From contig JAKVAQ010000034.1 in assembly GCA_022447665.1 (NCBI GenBank), forward strand, positions 19,203 through 63,527: 44,325 nucleotides of DNA, given 5' to 3'. This DNA is from Crocinitomicaceae bacterium (lineage in GTDB: Bacteria > Bacteroidota > Bacteroidia > Flavobacteriales_D > Crocinitomicaceae). A program made the translations under genes and the position numbers. Each line of letters begins with the position of its first letter. The first letter of the stretch is position 1. Of this stretch, positions 9,200-13,209 are shown in pieces. A model generated the notes under the pieces. It was not told where the DNA came from. It ran no database searches and saw nothing but the letters and a program-made list of their open reading frames with translations.

Positions 9200-11602
9200 A
9201 TGAATAGAAAGATTAAAAAAGTAGCAGTATTAGGTTCTGGAATTATGGGCTCAGGTATTGCTTGTCATTTAGCCAACATTGGTTGTGAGGTTTTACTTTT
9301 AGATATGGTTCCTCGAGAGCTTACAGAAAAAGAACAAGCCAAAGGACTTAGTTTAGAAGATAAAGTAGTTAGAAATAGATTGGTAAACGATTTCTTAAAA
9401 GCTTCTTTAAAATCTAAACCTTCACCGATTTACAAAAAAGAATTTGCTTCTCGAATCACCACTGGAAACTTCGACGATAACATGAAGGATATTGCATCGT
9501 GTGACTGGGTGATTGAGGTGGTCGTTGAACGCTTAGATATTAAGAAGATTATTTTTGATCAGGTAGATAAGTATAGAAAGCCCGGAACTTTAGTTTCATC
9601 GAATACTTCAGGTATTCCAATTCATATGATGCTTGAGGGGAGATCTGAAGATTTTCAGAAGCACTTCTGTGGAACTCACTTTTTTAATCCGCCGAGATAC
9701 TTGAGACTATTAGAGATTATACCTACACCTAAGACTGATCCTTCAGTTACCGATTTCTTTATGGAATACGGAGCAAGATTTTTAGGAAAAAAAACAGTTC
9801 TGTGTAAGGATACTCCGGCATTTATTGCGAACAGAGTAGGTGTGTACTCAATAATGTCCCTTTTCCATGCGGTAGAAGAGTTAGGGTTGACTGTAGAAGA
9901 AGTTGATAAACTTACAGGACCTGTATTAGGTAGACCAAAATCAGCTACGTTCAGAACGTGCGATGTTGTGGGGCTGGATACATTGGTACATGTTGCCAAT
10001 GGACTAACCGAGAATTGTCCGGATGACGAGGAGAGAGATTTATTCAAACTACCGAGCTATGTAGCGAAAATGGTTGAGAATAATTGGTTAGGTTCAAAAA
10101 CCAAACAAGGATTTTACAAGAAAGTAGTAAATGACGGTAAAAAAGAGATTTTAACGCTTGATTTAAAAACGCTCGAATACCGATCTAAACAAAAAGCTAA
10201 TTTCCCGGTATTAGCAGCAACAAAGGCTGTAGATGATTTATCGGAAAGAACAAAAATGCTTTTCTATGCGAAGGATAAAGCGGGTGAGTTCTTCAGAAAA
10301 GTTTTTTCGGGATTGTTCTCTTATGTATCGCACAGAGTTCCTGAAATATCAGATGAAATATATAAAGTTGATGATGCTCTAAAAGCAGGGTTTGGATGGG
10401 AGTTAGGACCGTTCGAAACTTGGGATGTAGTGGGCTTGGAAAAAGCCATTGCTATCATGAAAGAGCATGGAAAAGAGCCAGCAGCTTGGATTCAGGATAT
10501 GGTTTCTAAAGGACATACATCTTTCTATAAACTTGAGTATGGTTTAAAAAAGTATTACGATCAAGTTTCTGGTGAATACAAAGTTATTCCAGGAACTGAG
10601 GAACTATTGTTCTTAGATAACTTAAGAGATTCTAAGACGGTTTGGAGTAATTCTGATTGTCACTTGATTGACTTAGGTGATGGAATATTGAACCTAGAGT
10701 TCCATACGAAAATGAATACCATTGGCGGTGGAGTCTTAGCTGGAATTCAAAAAGGAATCTCGCTTGCTGAAAATGAATACAAAGGTCTTGTTATTTCCAA
10801 TACAGGACAAAATTTCTCCGCTGGTGCCAACGTAGGATTGATCTTTATGATGGCGGTGGAACAAGAGTACGACGAACTAAACTTTGCAATTAAGCAGTTC
10901 CAAGACACCATGATGCGTATTCGTTATTCATCATGTCCAGTTATCGTGGCGCCGCATAATATGGCCCTTGGAGGAGGGTGTGAAATGTCAATGCATGCTG
11001 ACAAGGTAATTGCGCACGCAGAGCTTTACATGGGTCTCGTTGAGTTTGGAGTTGGTTTGATCCCTGGAGGTGGGGGAACCAAAGAATTTGCGAAGCGGCT
11101 ATCGGATGGCTTAAAAGATGGAGATGTTAGAATTAATCGTTTCAGAGATTCTTTCTTAACCATTGGTCAAGCACAAGTTTCAACTTCGGCTTACGAGGCA
11201 TTTGATTTGGGTTATTTAAGACCTGGAATTGATGAAGTTGTGGTTGATAGAGATTATCAATTAACAAGAGCTAAAGAAGCATGTCTCTCATTATACAACG
11301 CAGGTTATACACAACCGCCTAAGCCAAAAGATATTACTGTTCTCGGTAATGAGGCTTTAGGTATTGTATATGTTGGCGCAGACTCAATGGAACATGGTAA
11401 GTACATCTCTGAGCATGATGCGTACATCTCAGAAAAATTAGGATTTGTTCTTGCGGGTGGAGATCTATCGGAACCGACGCAAGTGGACGAGCAATTCCTA
11501 CTTGATTTAGAAAGAAAAGCTTTCTTGGATCTCTGCACAAAGAAAAAGACCCTCGAAAGAATTCAAAGTATTGTTACAAAAGGGAAGATATTGAGAAATT
11601 AA
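9200..11602 (+). CDS. fadN: 3-hydroxyacyl-CoA dehydrogenase / enoyl-CoA hydratase fusion (FadN-like)
   Basis: This 800-residue bifunctional beta-oxidation enzyme has the dehydrogenase first and the hydratase second. That is the reverse of E. coli FadB/FadJ and the same order and size as Bacillus subtilis FadN. The NAD-binding loop GSGIMGSG is at residues 12-19. GTHFFNPPRYLRLLEIIPT holds the conserved catalytic His and its partner Glu. The C-terminal crotonase fold (about 490-700) shows NFSAGANVG for the oxyanion hole, then GGGCEMSMHAD and EFGVGLIPGGGG with the acidic residues of hydratases. It would convert enoyl-CoA to 3-ketoacyl-CoA in the cytoplasm, feeding the thiolase encoded downstream. 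The order fadN-fadA-fadE matches the B. subtilis operon, apart from two inserted small genes. Confidence 0.93.
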   Translation: MNRKIKKVAVLGSGIMGSGIACHLANIGCEVLLLDMVPRELTEKEQAKGLSLEDKVVRNRLVNDFLKASLKSKPSPIYKKEFASRITTGNFDDNMKDIASCDWVIEVVVERLDIKKIIFDQVDKYRKPGTLVSSNTSGIPIHMMLEGRSEDFQKHFCGTHFFNPPRYLRLLEIIPTPKTDPSVTDFFMEYGARFLGKKTVLCKDTPAFIANRVGVYSIMSLFHAVEELGLTVEEVDKLTGPVLGRPKSATFRTCDVVGLDTLVHVANGLTENCPDDEERDLFKLPSYVAKMVENNWLGSKTKQGFYKKVVNDGKKEILTLDLKTLEYRSKQKANFPVLAATKAVDDLSERTKMLFYAKDKAGEFFRKVFSGLFSYVSHRVPEISDEIYKVDDALKAGFGWELGPFETWDVVGLEKAIAIMKEHGKEPAAWIQDMVSKGHTSFYKLEYGLKKYYDQVSGEYKVIPGTEELLFLDNLRDSKTVWSNSDCHLIDLGDGILNLEFHTKMNTIGGGVLAGIQKGISLAENEYKGLVISNTGQNFSAGANVGLIFMMAVEQEYDELNFAIKQFQDTMMRIRYSSCPVIVAPHNMALGGGCEMSMHADKVIAHAELYMGLVEFGVGLIPGGGGTKEFAKRLSDGLKDGDVRINRFRDSFLTIGQAQVSTSAYEAFDLGYLRPGIDEVVVDRDYQLTRAKEACLSLYNAGYTQPPKPKDITVLGNEALGIVYVGADSMEHGKYISEHDAYISEKLGFVLAGGDLSEPTQVDEQFLLDLERKAFLDLCTKKKTLERIQSIVTKGKILRN

Positions 11603-11615
11603 GAATTAAGATGAA

Positions 11616-11625
11616 AGATTCAAGA
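11616..11625 (+). repeat. Left arm of short inverted repeat flanking the four-helix-bundle gene
   Basis: AGATTCAAGA here is the exact reverse complement of TCTTGAATCT at 12006-12015. The two arms bracket the four-helix-bundle gene. A related sequence, CTTGATTCTTGAG, lies at 11986-11998 just after that gene's stop. Confidence 0.45.
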
Positions 11626-11635
11626 AACTAGACAG

Positions 11636-11983
11636 ATGCATAACTTTAAAGAACTGAACATATGGAAAAAGTCCAAAGATTTATCGAAAGATATATTTCA
11701 GATGACCTCAAATTTCCCATCTGAGCATAAGTTTGGATTGAGCAGTCAATTAAACAGATGTGCAGTGTCAGTGCCTTCCAATATTGCAGAAAGATCAAGT
11801 CGAGATTCTCAAAAGGATTTTGCTAGGTTTCTTCAAATTTCGCTGGGTTCTGCCTTTGAATTAGAAACTCAATTGATAATTGCCGGCGAAATTGAATTAA
11901 TTAATTCCAAAGAATTAGAAAATTTATTAGAAAGAACGACAGAGATCCAACGGATGATTCATGGATTTAAGTCTAAATTATAA
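11636..11983 (+). CDS. Four-helix-bundle protein (S23 / 23S rRNA intervening-sequence family)
   Basis: The protein has 115 residues and the family hallmarks: start FKELNIWKKSKDLSKDIF, centre FGLSSQLNRCAVSVPSNIAE, then ARFLQISLGSAFELETQL. The family was first noticed inside 23S rRNA intervening sequences and is scattered through Bacteroidota genomes as stand-alone genes. The structure is a four-helix bundle related to the Avd accessory protein of diversity-generating retroelements; no enzymatic activity is established. It sits between fadN and fadA, which are directly adjacent in the Bacillus operon. Short inverted repeats at 11616 and 12006 flank it. It reads as a later insertion in the operon, possibly a minimal mobile element. 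No reverse transcriptase or variable repeat was seen nearby. Confidence 0.88.
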   Translation: MHNFKELNIWKKSKDLSKDIFQMTSNFPSEHKFGLSSQLNRCAVSVPSNIAERSSRDSQKDFARFLQISLGSAFELETQLIIAGEIELINSKELENLLERTTEIQRMIHGFKSKL

Positions 11984-12005
11984 TACTTGATTCTTGAGAA
12001 ATGGC

Positions 12006-12015
12006 TCTTGAATCT
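12006..12015 (+). repeat. Right arm of short inverted repeat flanking the four-helix-bundle gene
   Basis: TCTTGAATCT is the exact reverse complement of 11616-11625. It lies between an in-frame upstream ATG (12001) and the likely true fadA start (12031). Translation of this repeat would therefore give a non-native N-terminal extension. Confidence 0.45.
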
Positions 12016-12030
12016 AAAACTTTAACTAAA

Positions 12031-13209
12031 ATGAAAACAGCCTATATAGTAAAAGCATATAGAACAGCAGTCGGAAAGGCGAAGAAGGGTGGATTTAGAT
12101 TTGCCCGTCCTGATGATCTTGCTGCAGATGTTATAAAGAAAATTATGAGCGAGGTTCCAAACTTGGAGCCGGGACAAATAGATGATGTTATTGTTGGTAA
12201 TGCAATGCCAGAGGCAGAGCAGGGACTTAACGTTGGACGTTTTATCTCGTTAATGGGATTAGATACAAATAAGGTTCCAGGAATGACCGTGAATCGTTAC
12301 TGCTCTTCAGGAATTGAAACAATGGCATTGGCAAAAGCTAAAATAGAAGCTGGCCTTGCAGATGTTGTAATTGCTGGAGGTACAGAATCTATGTCAGCTA
12401 TTGCCATGGGAGGTTGGAGAGTTGTTCCAAACGCAAAAGTCTCTAAAGAACATGCTGATTGGTACTGGGGTATGGGGAATACCGCTGAAGCAGTTGCTGA
12501 GAAGTACGGGGTATCTCGTGAAGACCAAGATGAGTTTGCATATAATTCTCATATGAAGGCTTTAGCAGCACAGGCTGAAGGAAGATTCAAAGATGATATT
12601 GTTCCTATTGAAATGTCTGAAGTTTATGTGGATGCTAACGGTAAAAGAGCGGAGAAGAAGTATGTTGTAGATGCTGATGAAGGACCAAGAAAAGGTACGA
12701 CTGTAGAGGCGCTTTCAAATTTGAAGCCAGTATTCATGAATGGCGGAACCGTTACTGCCGGTAACGCTTCTCAAATGTCAGATGGTGCCGCTTTCTGCTT
12801 GATGATGTCAGAAGAGATGGTGAAGAAATTAAATCTTGAGCCTATTGCTAGACTAATTTCATATAAAGTGGTTGGTGTAGAACCAAGAATTATGGGAATT
12901 GGCCCCGTAGATGCTATTCCAGGCGCTATTGAAATGGCCGGTTTAAAGTTAAACGACATTAACTTATTTGAATTGAATGAAGCCTTTGCTTCACAATCAT
13001 TGGCGGTAATTCGAGAAGCCGGACTTAATCCAGATATCGTTAACGTAAATGGTGGAGCAATTTCGTTAGGTCACCCATTAGGATGCACAGGAGCTAAACT
13101 TTCTGTTCAAATAATTAATGAATTGAAAAGAAGAAACCAAAAATACGGAGTGGTAACCATGTGTGTTGGTACAGGACAAGGAGCTGCAGGAGTATTAGAG
13201 ATATTGTAA
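12031..13209 (+). CDS. fadA: Acetyl-CoA C-acyltransferase (3-ketoacyl-CoA thiolase)
   Basis: This thiolase cleaves 3-ketoacyl-CoA with CoA in the last step of beta-oxidation. From ATG 12031 it has 392 residues, with the nucleophile Cys91 in NRYCSSG, His348 in GHPLG and the acid/base Cys378 in CVGTGQGA. GGTESMS and NEAFASQ are the usual thiolase motifs. An in-frame ATG at 12001 would add ten residues (MALESKTLTK) encoded by the inverted-repeat flank of the preceding insertion. The family's usual length and active-site numbering favour 12031. It ends directly against the GNAT gene start and belongs to the fad operon. Confidence 0.93.
   Translation: MKTAYIVKAYRTAVGKAKKGGFRFARPDDLAADVIKKIMSEVPNLEPGQIDDVIVGNAMPEAEQGLNVGRFISLMGLDTNKVPGMTVNRYCSSGIETMALAKAKIEAGLADVVIAGGTESMSAIAMGGWRVVPNAKVSKEHADWYWGMGNTAEAVAEKYGVSREDQDEFAYNSHMKALAAQAEGRFKDDIVPIEMSEVYVDANGKRAEKKYVVDADEGPRKGTTVEALSNLKPVFMNGGTVTAGNASQMSDGAAFCLMMSEEMVKKLNLEPIARLISYKVVGVEPRIMGIGPVDAIPGAIEMAGLKLNDINLFELNEAFASQSLAVIREAGLNPDIVNVNGGAISLGHPLGCTGAKLSVQIINELKRRNQKYGVVTMCVGTGQGAAGVLEIL

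Follow-up and report, generated by a model that had tools for sequence, protein, structure and literature searches.

A candidate minimal insertion element formed by an IVP-family gene and inverted heptanucleotide arrays at a fadN–fadA junction

Inserts carrying IVP-family ORFs have been described from rRNA genes. The 23S IVS of Coxiella burnetii is a 428-nt sequence with complementary ends and an S23p ORF in its loop, and is excised by RNase III in vitro (PMC4990558), and IVP ORFs also occur in rRNA inserts of CPR bacteria (PMC11270868). Two four-helix-bundle proteins, Avd and XCC0516 (2gsc), are related to IVP; XCC0516 is given as a homopentamer in PMC4990558, and the homology between Avd and PF05635 is discussed in PMC10053308. 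Repeats of 7 nt are known from other settings. The P6b stem of the Nostoc tRNA-Leu intron consists of 7-nt repeats that belong to two alternative motif classes and have been replaced repeatedly (PMC4476775), while TAACTGA heptamers occur as intergenic tandem arrays, many of them beside start codons, in Beggiatoaceae, cyanobacteria and some Bacteroidetes, and close relatives lack them at some of these positions (PMC4679880). Here, we compare these systems with an IVP-family gene found between the fadN and fadA genes of a Crocinitomicaceae bacterium.

The locus lies in a window of 44,325 nt (the whole stretch of DNA that was analysed), and its features are collected in Table 1. The ORF between fadN and fadA returned full-length matches to PF05635 (E value 3.1e-38, 130.7 bits against a cut-off of 33.8, model positions 1–106 of 106) and to TIGR02436 (126.5 bits, cut-off 24), confirming the family proposed in an earlier, sequence-only reading of this DNA. 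That reading had also picked out AGATTCAAGA and TCTTGAATCT as perfect inverted copies bracketing the gene, which they are, and a related CTTGATTCTTGAG at 11986, which is present and proved to be the start of the 3′ array. The fadN stop codon adjoins the 5′ array, whose last heptad extends into the IVP start codon. Within this array, AGA recurs every 7 nt (at 11602, 11609, 11616, 11623 and 11630), and five AGA in one phase were not obtained in any of 20,000 shuffles of the flanks. The 3′ array is complementary in part to the 5′ array, with TCT/CTT-type units in phase over positions 11985–12019 and one unit, AAATGGC, off pattern. Of 20,000 trials in which both short flanks were shuffled, 45 yielded an inverted match that was perfect over 10 nt or more. 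When the whole window was scanned for local periodicity of 7 nt, five of the 12 hits fell in the two flanks of the element; each of five shuffled windows yielded 3–7 hits.

Table 1. Features of the IVP locus, in window positions
Feature	Position	Strand	Basis
fadN-type gene (3-hydroxyacyl-CoA dehydrogenase/enoyl-CoA hydratase)	9200..11602	+	Pfam 3HCDH_N, 3HCDH, ECH_1
5′ arm, five one-phase heptads: AGAATTA AGATGAA AGATTCA AGAAACT AGACAGA	11602..11636	+	sequence, phase test, periodicity scan
AGATTCAAGA, 5′ member of perfect 10-bp inverted pair	11616..11625	+	sequence
IVP/four-helix-bundle ORF, 115 aa, intact	11636..11983	+	PF05635, TIGR02436
3′ arm, 7-nt-phased: ACTTGAT TCTTGAG AAATGGC TCTTGAA TCTAAAA CTTTAAC	11985..12026	+	sequence, inverted pairs I6 and I9, periodicity scan
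TCTTGAATCT, 3′ member of perfect 10-bp inverted pair	12006..12015	+	sequence
fadA (acetyl-CoA C-acyltransferase)	12031..13209	+	Thiolase_N/C; start MKTAYIVKAYRTAVGK inferred

The start of fadA is probably that given in Table 1 rather than the longest-ORF start at 12001, and with this start the 3′ arm would be non-coding; an ATG is aligned with the residue at 12031 in most of the relatives' junctions that we inspected. The fadN, IVP and fadA genes are followed by genes for a GNAT protein and a FadE-type acyl-CoA dehydrogenase and preceded by a MarR gene. As to a target-site duplication, a 9-nt direct repeat, TTGAGAAAT, flanks the element, a match that is not unlikely by chance and that concerns the window locus only. 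The same genome carries a second IVP-family gene (L002, G000:C29:38770-39015). It is distantly related, and its two flanks are a poor match, ranking 42nd by row and 60th by column among 82 with RNAduplex.

On balance, we favour the reading that positions ~11602–12026 form a minimal insertion element akin to the rRNA IVS, i.e. two inverted degenerate 7-nt arrays around an IVP gene, placed between operon genes. Like the Coxiella IVS, it is ~430 nt long, holds an IVP-family ORF in the loop between complementary ends and is sporadic with recurrent sites; unlike that insert, for which RNase III excision has been observed in vitro, it lies between protein-coding genes and has degenerate heptad arms of variable motif. 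Its neighbours are fadN and fadA and it is not within a 16S or 23S rRNA gene; hence, we did not file it as an rRNA IVS. With the P6b stem of Nostoc it shares a stem made of 7-nt repeats and the replacement of motifs, whereas P6b is a variable stem of a group I intron, and we found no mention of a protein gene in that stem (PMC4476775). The TAACTGA work concerns one fixed direct repeat, and the terms S23, intervening and four helix do not occur in its main text (PMC4679880). In the open-access literature (subscription papers and most preprints lying outside it), none of the titles, abstract openings and passages listed by our searches describes heptad arms around IVP genes in operons.

The protein superfamily common to IVP, IVS ORFs and Avd would also fit a relic of a known element, whether an rRNA IVS, an intron of group I or II, or an Avd-bearing diversity-generating retroelement. 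We regard this as extremely unlikely, as neither the window nor 12 IVP loci gave an Rfam match at the gathering score. The candidates also failed individually. For a group I or II intron, no catalytic core and no Rfam match at the gathering score were detected in the window; for a diversity-generating retroelement, no RVT_1 match was returned from the 99.98 % complete genome, which sets the locus apart from the reverse transcriptase-bearing Avd retroelements; an Avd identity fell below the cut-offs (bAvd, 35.3 vs 40 bits; DivGenRetAVD, 31.3 vs 80); and an rRNA IVS is at odds with the neighbours fadN and fadA and with the lack of an Rfam match in the window.

Genes matching PF05635 are usually annotated as just 'four helix bundle protein'. 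The family was matched in 232 of 296 genomes sampled across the phylum, in 220 of them above the family cut-off. The window's IVP is related to the solved XCC0516 (2gsc; E value 1.6e-19), and the entries of its two solved relatives contain five chains each. Values of dN/dS ranged from 0.04 to 0.21 in 12 of 12 IVP pairs (with dS >1 in four), and purifying selection acts on the protein.

To place the arms of the window among those of its relatives, we assembled 228 distinct IVP ORFs from relatives and phylum-wide genomes, named GTDB-contig loci (the best 80 of 584), 23 IMG/VR loci and four cyanobacterial plasmid regions; 203 ORFs lie outside the viral and cyanobacterial loci, and 192 of these have usable flanks. 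This sample is non-random, since most entries are the top-scoring matches of each search. For each locus, the score was that of the highest-scoring local match between the 5′ flank and the reverse-complemented 3′ flank, counting Watson–Crick pairs only. This scoring was used instead of RNAduplex with G.U allowed, which separated own flanks (-42.1) from cross-locus pairs (-31.0) but also gave a high value for the same-sense control (-37.9).

Across the 192 loci, the inverted score of a locus's own flanks averaged 14.65, compared with 8.05 for cross-locus pairs and a highest value of 8.65 in 20,000 permutations. A score of at least 10 was reached by 160 of the 192 loci (13.4 % of cross pairs), leaving 32 below 10. 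Both flanks had a lag-7 identity of 0.391 with echoes at lags 14 and 21, all other lags lying at 0.27–0.32. The result was similar for the named set alone (own 15.13, cross 8.15; 83 usable of 87 ORFs; 80 loci) and for the viral contigs (own 15.70, cross 7.44; 20 usable of 21 ORFs). Complementary ends around an ORF, as expected of an IVS, are present both in the window, as the 10-bp pair, and in most of the collection. With a score of 10.0, the window's element ranks among the weaker, and its 5′ flank is matched better by the 3′ flanks of 15 other loci. Matched arm length varies over the loci, with a median of 26 nt. Same-sense similarity of the flanks is also raised (mean 10.08 in the 192 loci), and a few loci have same-sense repeats on both sides (L102, L139 and L249). 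These exceptions, like the low-scoring loci and the weak arms of the window, weigh against an insertion element.

The earlier expectation that inverted termini recur around other family members thus held for the architecture, and arms are not absent around them; it did not hold for the exact sequence, as AGATTCAAGA is not common to the loci. Rather, the arm motif varies from locus to locus, and the inverted 7-nt architecture is what they have in common. MITE-like and palindromic intergenic elements are short inverted-repeat elements, and the IVP element resembles MITEs in this respect and in having IVP-less hairpin forms at the same site (see below). Unlike MITEs and IS elements, it has arms that match their own partner and not a terminal sequence common to the copies, and it has no known transposase; conserved terminal inverted repeats across copies were not found among the 192 loci.

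In the cyanobacterial plasmids, heptad arrays stand on both sides of the IVP gene in three of four regions, inverted in Nostoc and Anabaena and same-sense in Pseudanabaena; the Calothrix plasmid has a repeat array well upstream of the IVP gene and a weak match. The arms of the Nostoc plasmid locus (L248) are long, well matched and of the GGGAGTA/TACTCCC type, and its IVP gene opposes ribonucleotide reductase genes on both sides. In two of the plasmid loci (L249 and L251), the IVP gene has cas6 and cas4 as its neighbours within a CRISPR locus, with heptads on both sides, and in L251 a type I-D Cas1d is annotated next.

Heptads in a gap might also arise by polymerase slippage and be inverted by template switching, in which case there would be no element and the small gene would be an ordinary one present by chance. 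A study cited in PMC4679880 found heptanucleotides to outnumber every other repeat class in the majority of genomes and proposed slippage, heptad hairpins exist without IVP, and the mismatch pattern of the arms (see below) gives no pointer to selection at the RNA level. We nevertheless consider this explanation improbable in view of the controls. The flanks of other genes are seldom complementary: with IVP neighbourhoods removed, seven of 123 control genes away from any IVP reached a score of 10. This control was made since the top entries of an earlier one, of 97 genes, had included duplicate IVP loci; 11 of the 97 reached 10, and their lag-7 values (0.296 and 0.282) showed no peak. The share of the window's periodicity hits that falls on the two arms (five of 12), and the persistence of the arm association in the viral contigs and in most of the cyanobacterial plasmid regions, also speak against chance. 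The arrangement of heptad arms and an IVP gene in operons is real and widespread.

The IVP gene is co-directional with both neighbours in 160 of 177 loci, opposes both in four and is mixed in 13. An element that sits in the gap between genes and reads in the same direction leaves the operon intact. The commonest sites in the first set (n=87) are fadN|fadA (28), sdhA|sdhB (seven), thioesterase|thiolase (six) and sufB|sufC (five), the count for fadN|fadA being biased because, except for L116 and L135, its 28 entries came from the junction search or are the window itself. One to three loci each were found at cysD|cysN, MoxR|DUF58, nuoC|nuoD, groES|groEL, argC|argD, E2|lipoamide dehydrogenase and carA|enolase. 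Leaving fadN|fadA aside, one neighbour pair per site was compared with NCBIfam or Pfam at the ten remaining sites, and these pairs fit the site names; at cysD|cysN, Pfam recognises a PAPS reductase domain and an EF-Tu-like GTPase domain. Seven fad operons (L034, L150, L159, L162, L165, L202 and L207) have two IVP genes, one before and one after fadA.

This co-direction in intercistronic gaps, together with the recurrence in core operons (sdh, suf, nuo, gro and fad) and the purifying selection on IVP, would suit a resident regulatory device, the main rival to an insertion element. The hairpin would then act in mRNA processing or stability and so fix the ratio between the upstream and downstream genes, IVP would be an RNA-binding regulator, and gain and loss would follow changing need and not selfish spread. 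We hold this to be possible, if on the unlikely side. It draws further support from the IVP tree, on which the proteins cluster by site (20 label changes vs 48.7 when shuffled); as this is beyond chance, descent with loss plays a large part, which also weighs against the element reading. Against the regulatory device, 12 of the 21 IVP ORFs on viral contigs oppose both neighbours, which makes co-direction less than universal, and the IVP gene of the Nostoc plasmid does likewise. On the IVP tree, an IVP from a different site (L107) forms a group with that of the window (SH-aLRT 85). The trees are quick searches, and that of IVP has few columns for its rows; its deep forks were not used. Between different sites, arm similarity averaged 12.89 for 31 pairs with an IVP identity of at least 65 % and 8.34 for pairs below 45 %, a pattern that joint travel of gene and arms would be expected to produce; under a stricter site filter, only some of the pairs carry the rise.

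Searching 99 genomes (98 relatives and the window's own) gave a fadN match in 89 and 83 junction loci including the window, of which 74 were analysable; nine, in which fadA or the end of fadN was absent or unplaced, were set aside. Instead of a gene carried by all relatives between unconserved flanks, we found the empty sites that the sequence-only reading had suggested seeking, with IVP present in 26 of the 74 junctions (the window included) and absent from 48. Gaps of <40 nt at 47 analysed fadN|fadA junctions (among L003–L085 and L281–L370) mean that close relatives dispense with the insert, which counts against a resident regulatory device. On the FadN+FadA tree, at least 19 changes of presence are required, 13 of them forced by starred branches; shuffled labels gave a mean of 21.5, and 66 of 500 shuffles were as low as 19. 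The window's nearest relatives on this tree (L004 and L085) are without IVP. Among the compared loci, we saw neither an insertion event nor an excision product nor a mobilising enzyme, which counts against the element reading.

Replacement is suggested by L009 and L010, whose FadN+FadA are 96.1 % identical and whose IVPs share 49.1 % identity, indicating that strongly different IVPs have occupied one junction. The other six pairs with 94–98 % FadN+FadA identity have IVPs that are 87–93 % (L029/L037, L017/L025 and L036/L084), 79 % (L042/L049) or 61–62 % identical (L026 vs L029 or L037). L036 and L038 probably represent a recent loss: L036 has the gene and L038 does not, their FadN are 99.4 % identical over 165 residues and their FadA 99.5 % over 390, and L038 retains a short right-hand remnant beside an unrelated hairpin. 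The movement postulated by the sequence-only reading is thus suggested by patchiness, replacement and variety of sites, with no transposition seen; the folded RNA that it coupled to movement fared less well, as described below.

The last 50 nt of fadN diverge by 18 % between L036 and L038, compared with 0–4 % further in, and by 28 % between L009 and L010, then 6–30 % further in. By eye, about nine synonymous differences fall in the last 27 nt of fadN in L036/L038, genes that are otherwise nearly identical. Divergence at the fadN end was high in two (L010/L011 and L075/L070) of eight other pairs that differ in presence and not in the remaining six, and showed no clear rise in two further pairs whose IVPs differ. 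That insertion converts the fadN end is no more than a lead. The fadN stop is TAG in 54 of 74 element junctions vs four of 47 tight ones (L003–L085 and L281–L370, which are not phylogenetically independent), an excess that could be explained by the need for an A-rich fadA start region. In many cases, this TAG can be taken as belonging to the first repeat unit.

Hairpins without IVP were frequent in one genus, probably Flavobacterium to judge from its likeness to named loci. Here, 98 of 101 genomes had a fadN match, and 90 junctions were read and 89 scored: 10 have IVP, 20 have a gap of <40 nt and 59 have a longer gap without a recognised IVP. Among 54 IVP-less gaps of 40–300 nt, 42 scored at least 10 as hairpins (4.4 % when shuffled), the mean lag-7 identity was 0.497 (0.31–0.36 at other lags except 14), and 36 combined a score of at least 10 with a lag-7 identity of at least 0.4. 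Several of the remaining gaps hold G/C-rich palindromes without a 7-nt period. In the window's own order, two of 19 IVP-less gaps reached a hairpin score of 10, a point against the element reading. That such hairpins persist without the gene in one genus is a further point for a regulatory device.

Other contents of the junction were noted by the way. Two loci (L349 and L355) appear by eye to retain decayed IVP remnants, and two (L045 and L052) have a different reading frame in the gap, nucleotidyltransferase-like by eye. A G/C-rich palindrome of the CCCCCTTTGGAGGGGG type follows fadN in the IVP-less loci L023, L038, L078, L085, L286, L290, L316 and L360. With such unrelated palindromes, the fadN|fadA junction seems open to several kinds of insert.

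The sequence-only reading had the insert acting as a folded RNA, for which we found no support. The predicted RNA fold of positions 11590–12040 is unremarkable, with only a small advantage over shuffled sequence (z -1.77; matched by 5 of 100 shuffles). If the stem were selected in mRNA, mismatches on the coding strand should be G.U more often than A.C. No G.U excess was seen in 117 arms (G.U 107 vs A.C 109), in 31 IVP-less hairpins (10 vs 24) or among isolated mismatches (25 vs 51; cross-locus control 17 vs 24), while the 13 arms in which IVP opposes both neighbours gave 12 vs 4 on the IVP strand. With related loci clustered in the host-transcript frame, A.C exceeded G.U in 18 clusters vs 6 (two-sided p 0.023), and two other settings of the clustering gave non-significant results (12 vs 8 and 9 vs 4). 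The lean of isolated mismatches to A.C on the host-transcript strand also holds where IVP opposes it and is weak after correction for relatedness.

The test is limited in power, because many mismatches may reflect register shifts; RNAalifold likewise returned no structure for 21 aligned IVP-less hairpins, probably because the units shift register. Maintenance of the arms at the RNA level thus received no support from the wobble test, a point against an mRNA stem as regulatory device, and we have not built on the reverse asymmetry. The arms may be maintained at the DNA level instead, and template switching in DNA or a functional DNA hairpin is no less likely than an RNA stem.

Under the favoured reading of a minimal insertion element, the arms would form a hairpin in DNA, RNA or both, and IVP, whose solved relatives have five chains and include the homopentamer XCC0516, may bind the heptads. 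Copies would spread between sites and strains, probably aided by homologous recombination of the flanks, as no mobilising enzyme was recognised with the copies. Repeat slippage and template switching could change the arms quickly, so that complementarity is kept while the motif drifts.

PF05635 genes gain from this work a recognisable genetic unit, consisting of heptad arms in an operon gap with the host operon intact. More speculatively, and with more doubt than confidence, IVP genes may be the signature of an extensive, so far unrecognised class of minimal mobile elements that occupy core-operon gaps, with hypervariable, self-complementary arms read by a ring of IVP at one heptad per subunit, IVP-less hairpins as non-autonomous offspring and the rRNA IVS as the special case that was noticed first. 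In such a ring, five subunits would correspond to the five heptads of the window's 35-nt arm, although arm length varies among loci. The long-standing puzzle of the role of IVP and of rRNA IVS becomes directly testable, and the arms offer a natural system in which inverted repeats remain complementary as their sequence changes. The same type of insert coming and going among the core genes of related bacteria suggests an overlooked family of tiny mobile elements.
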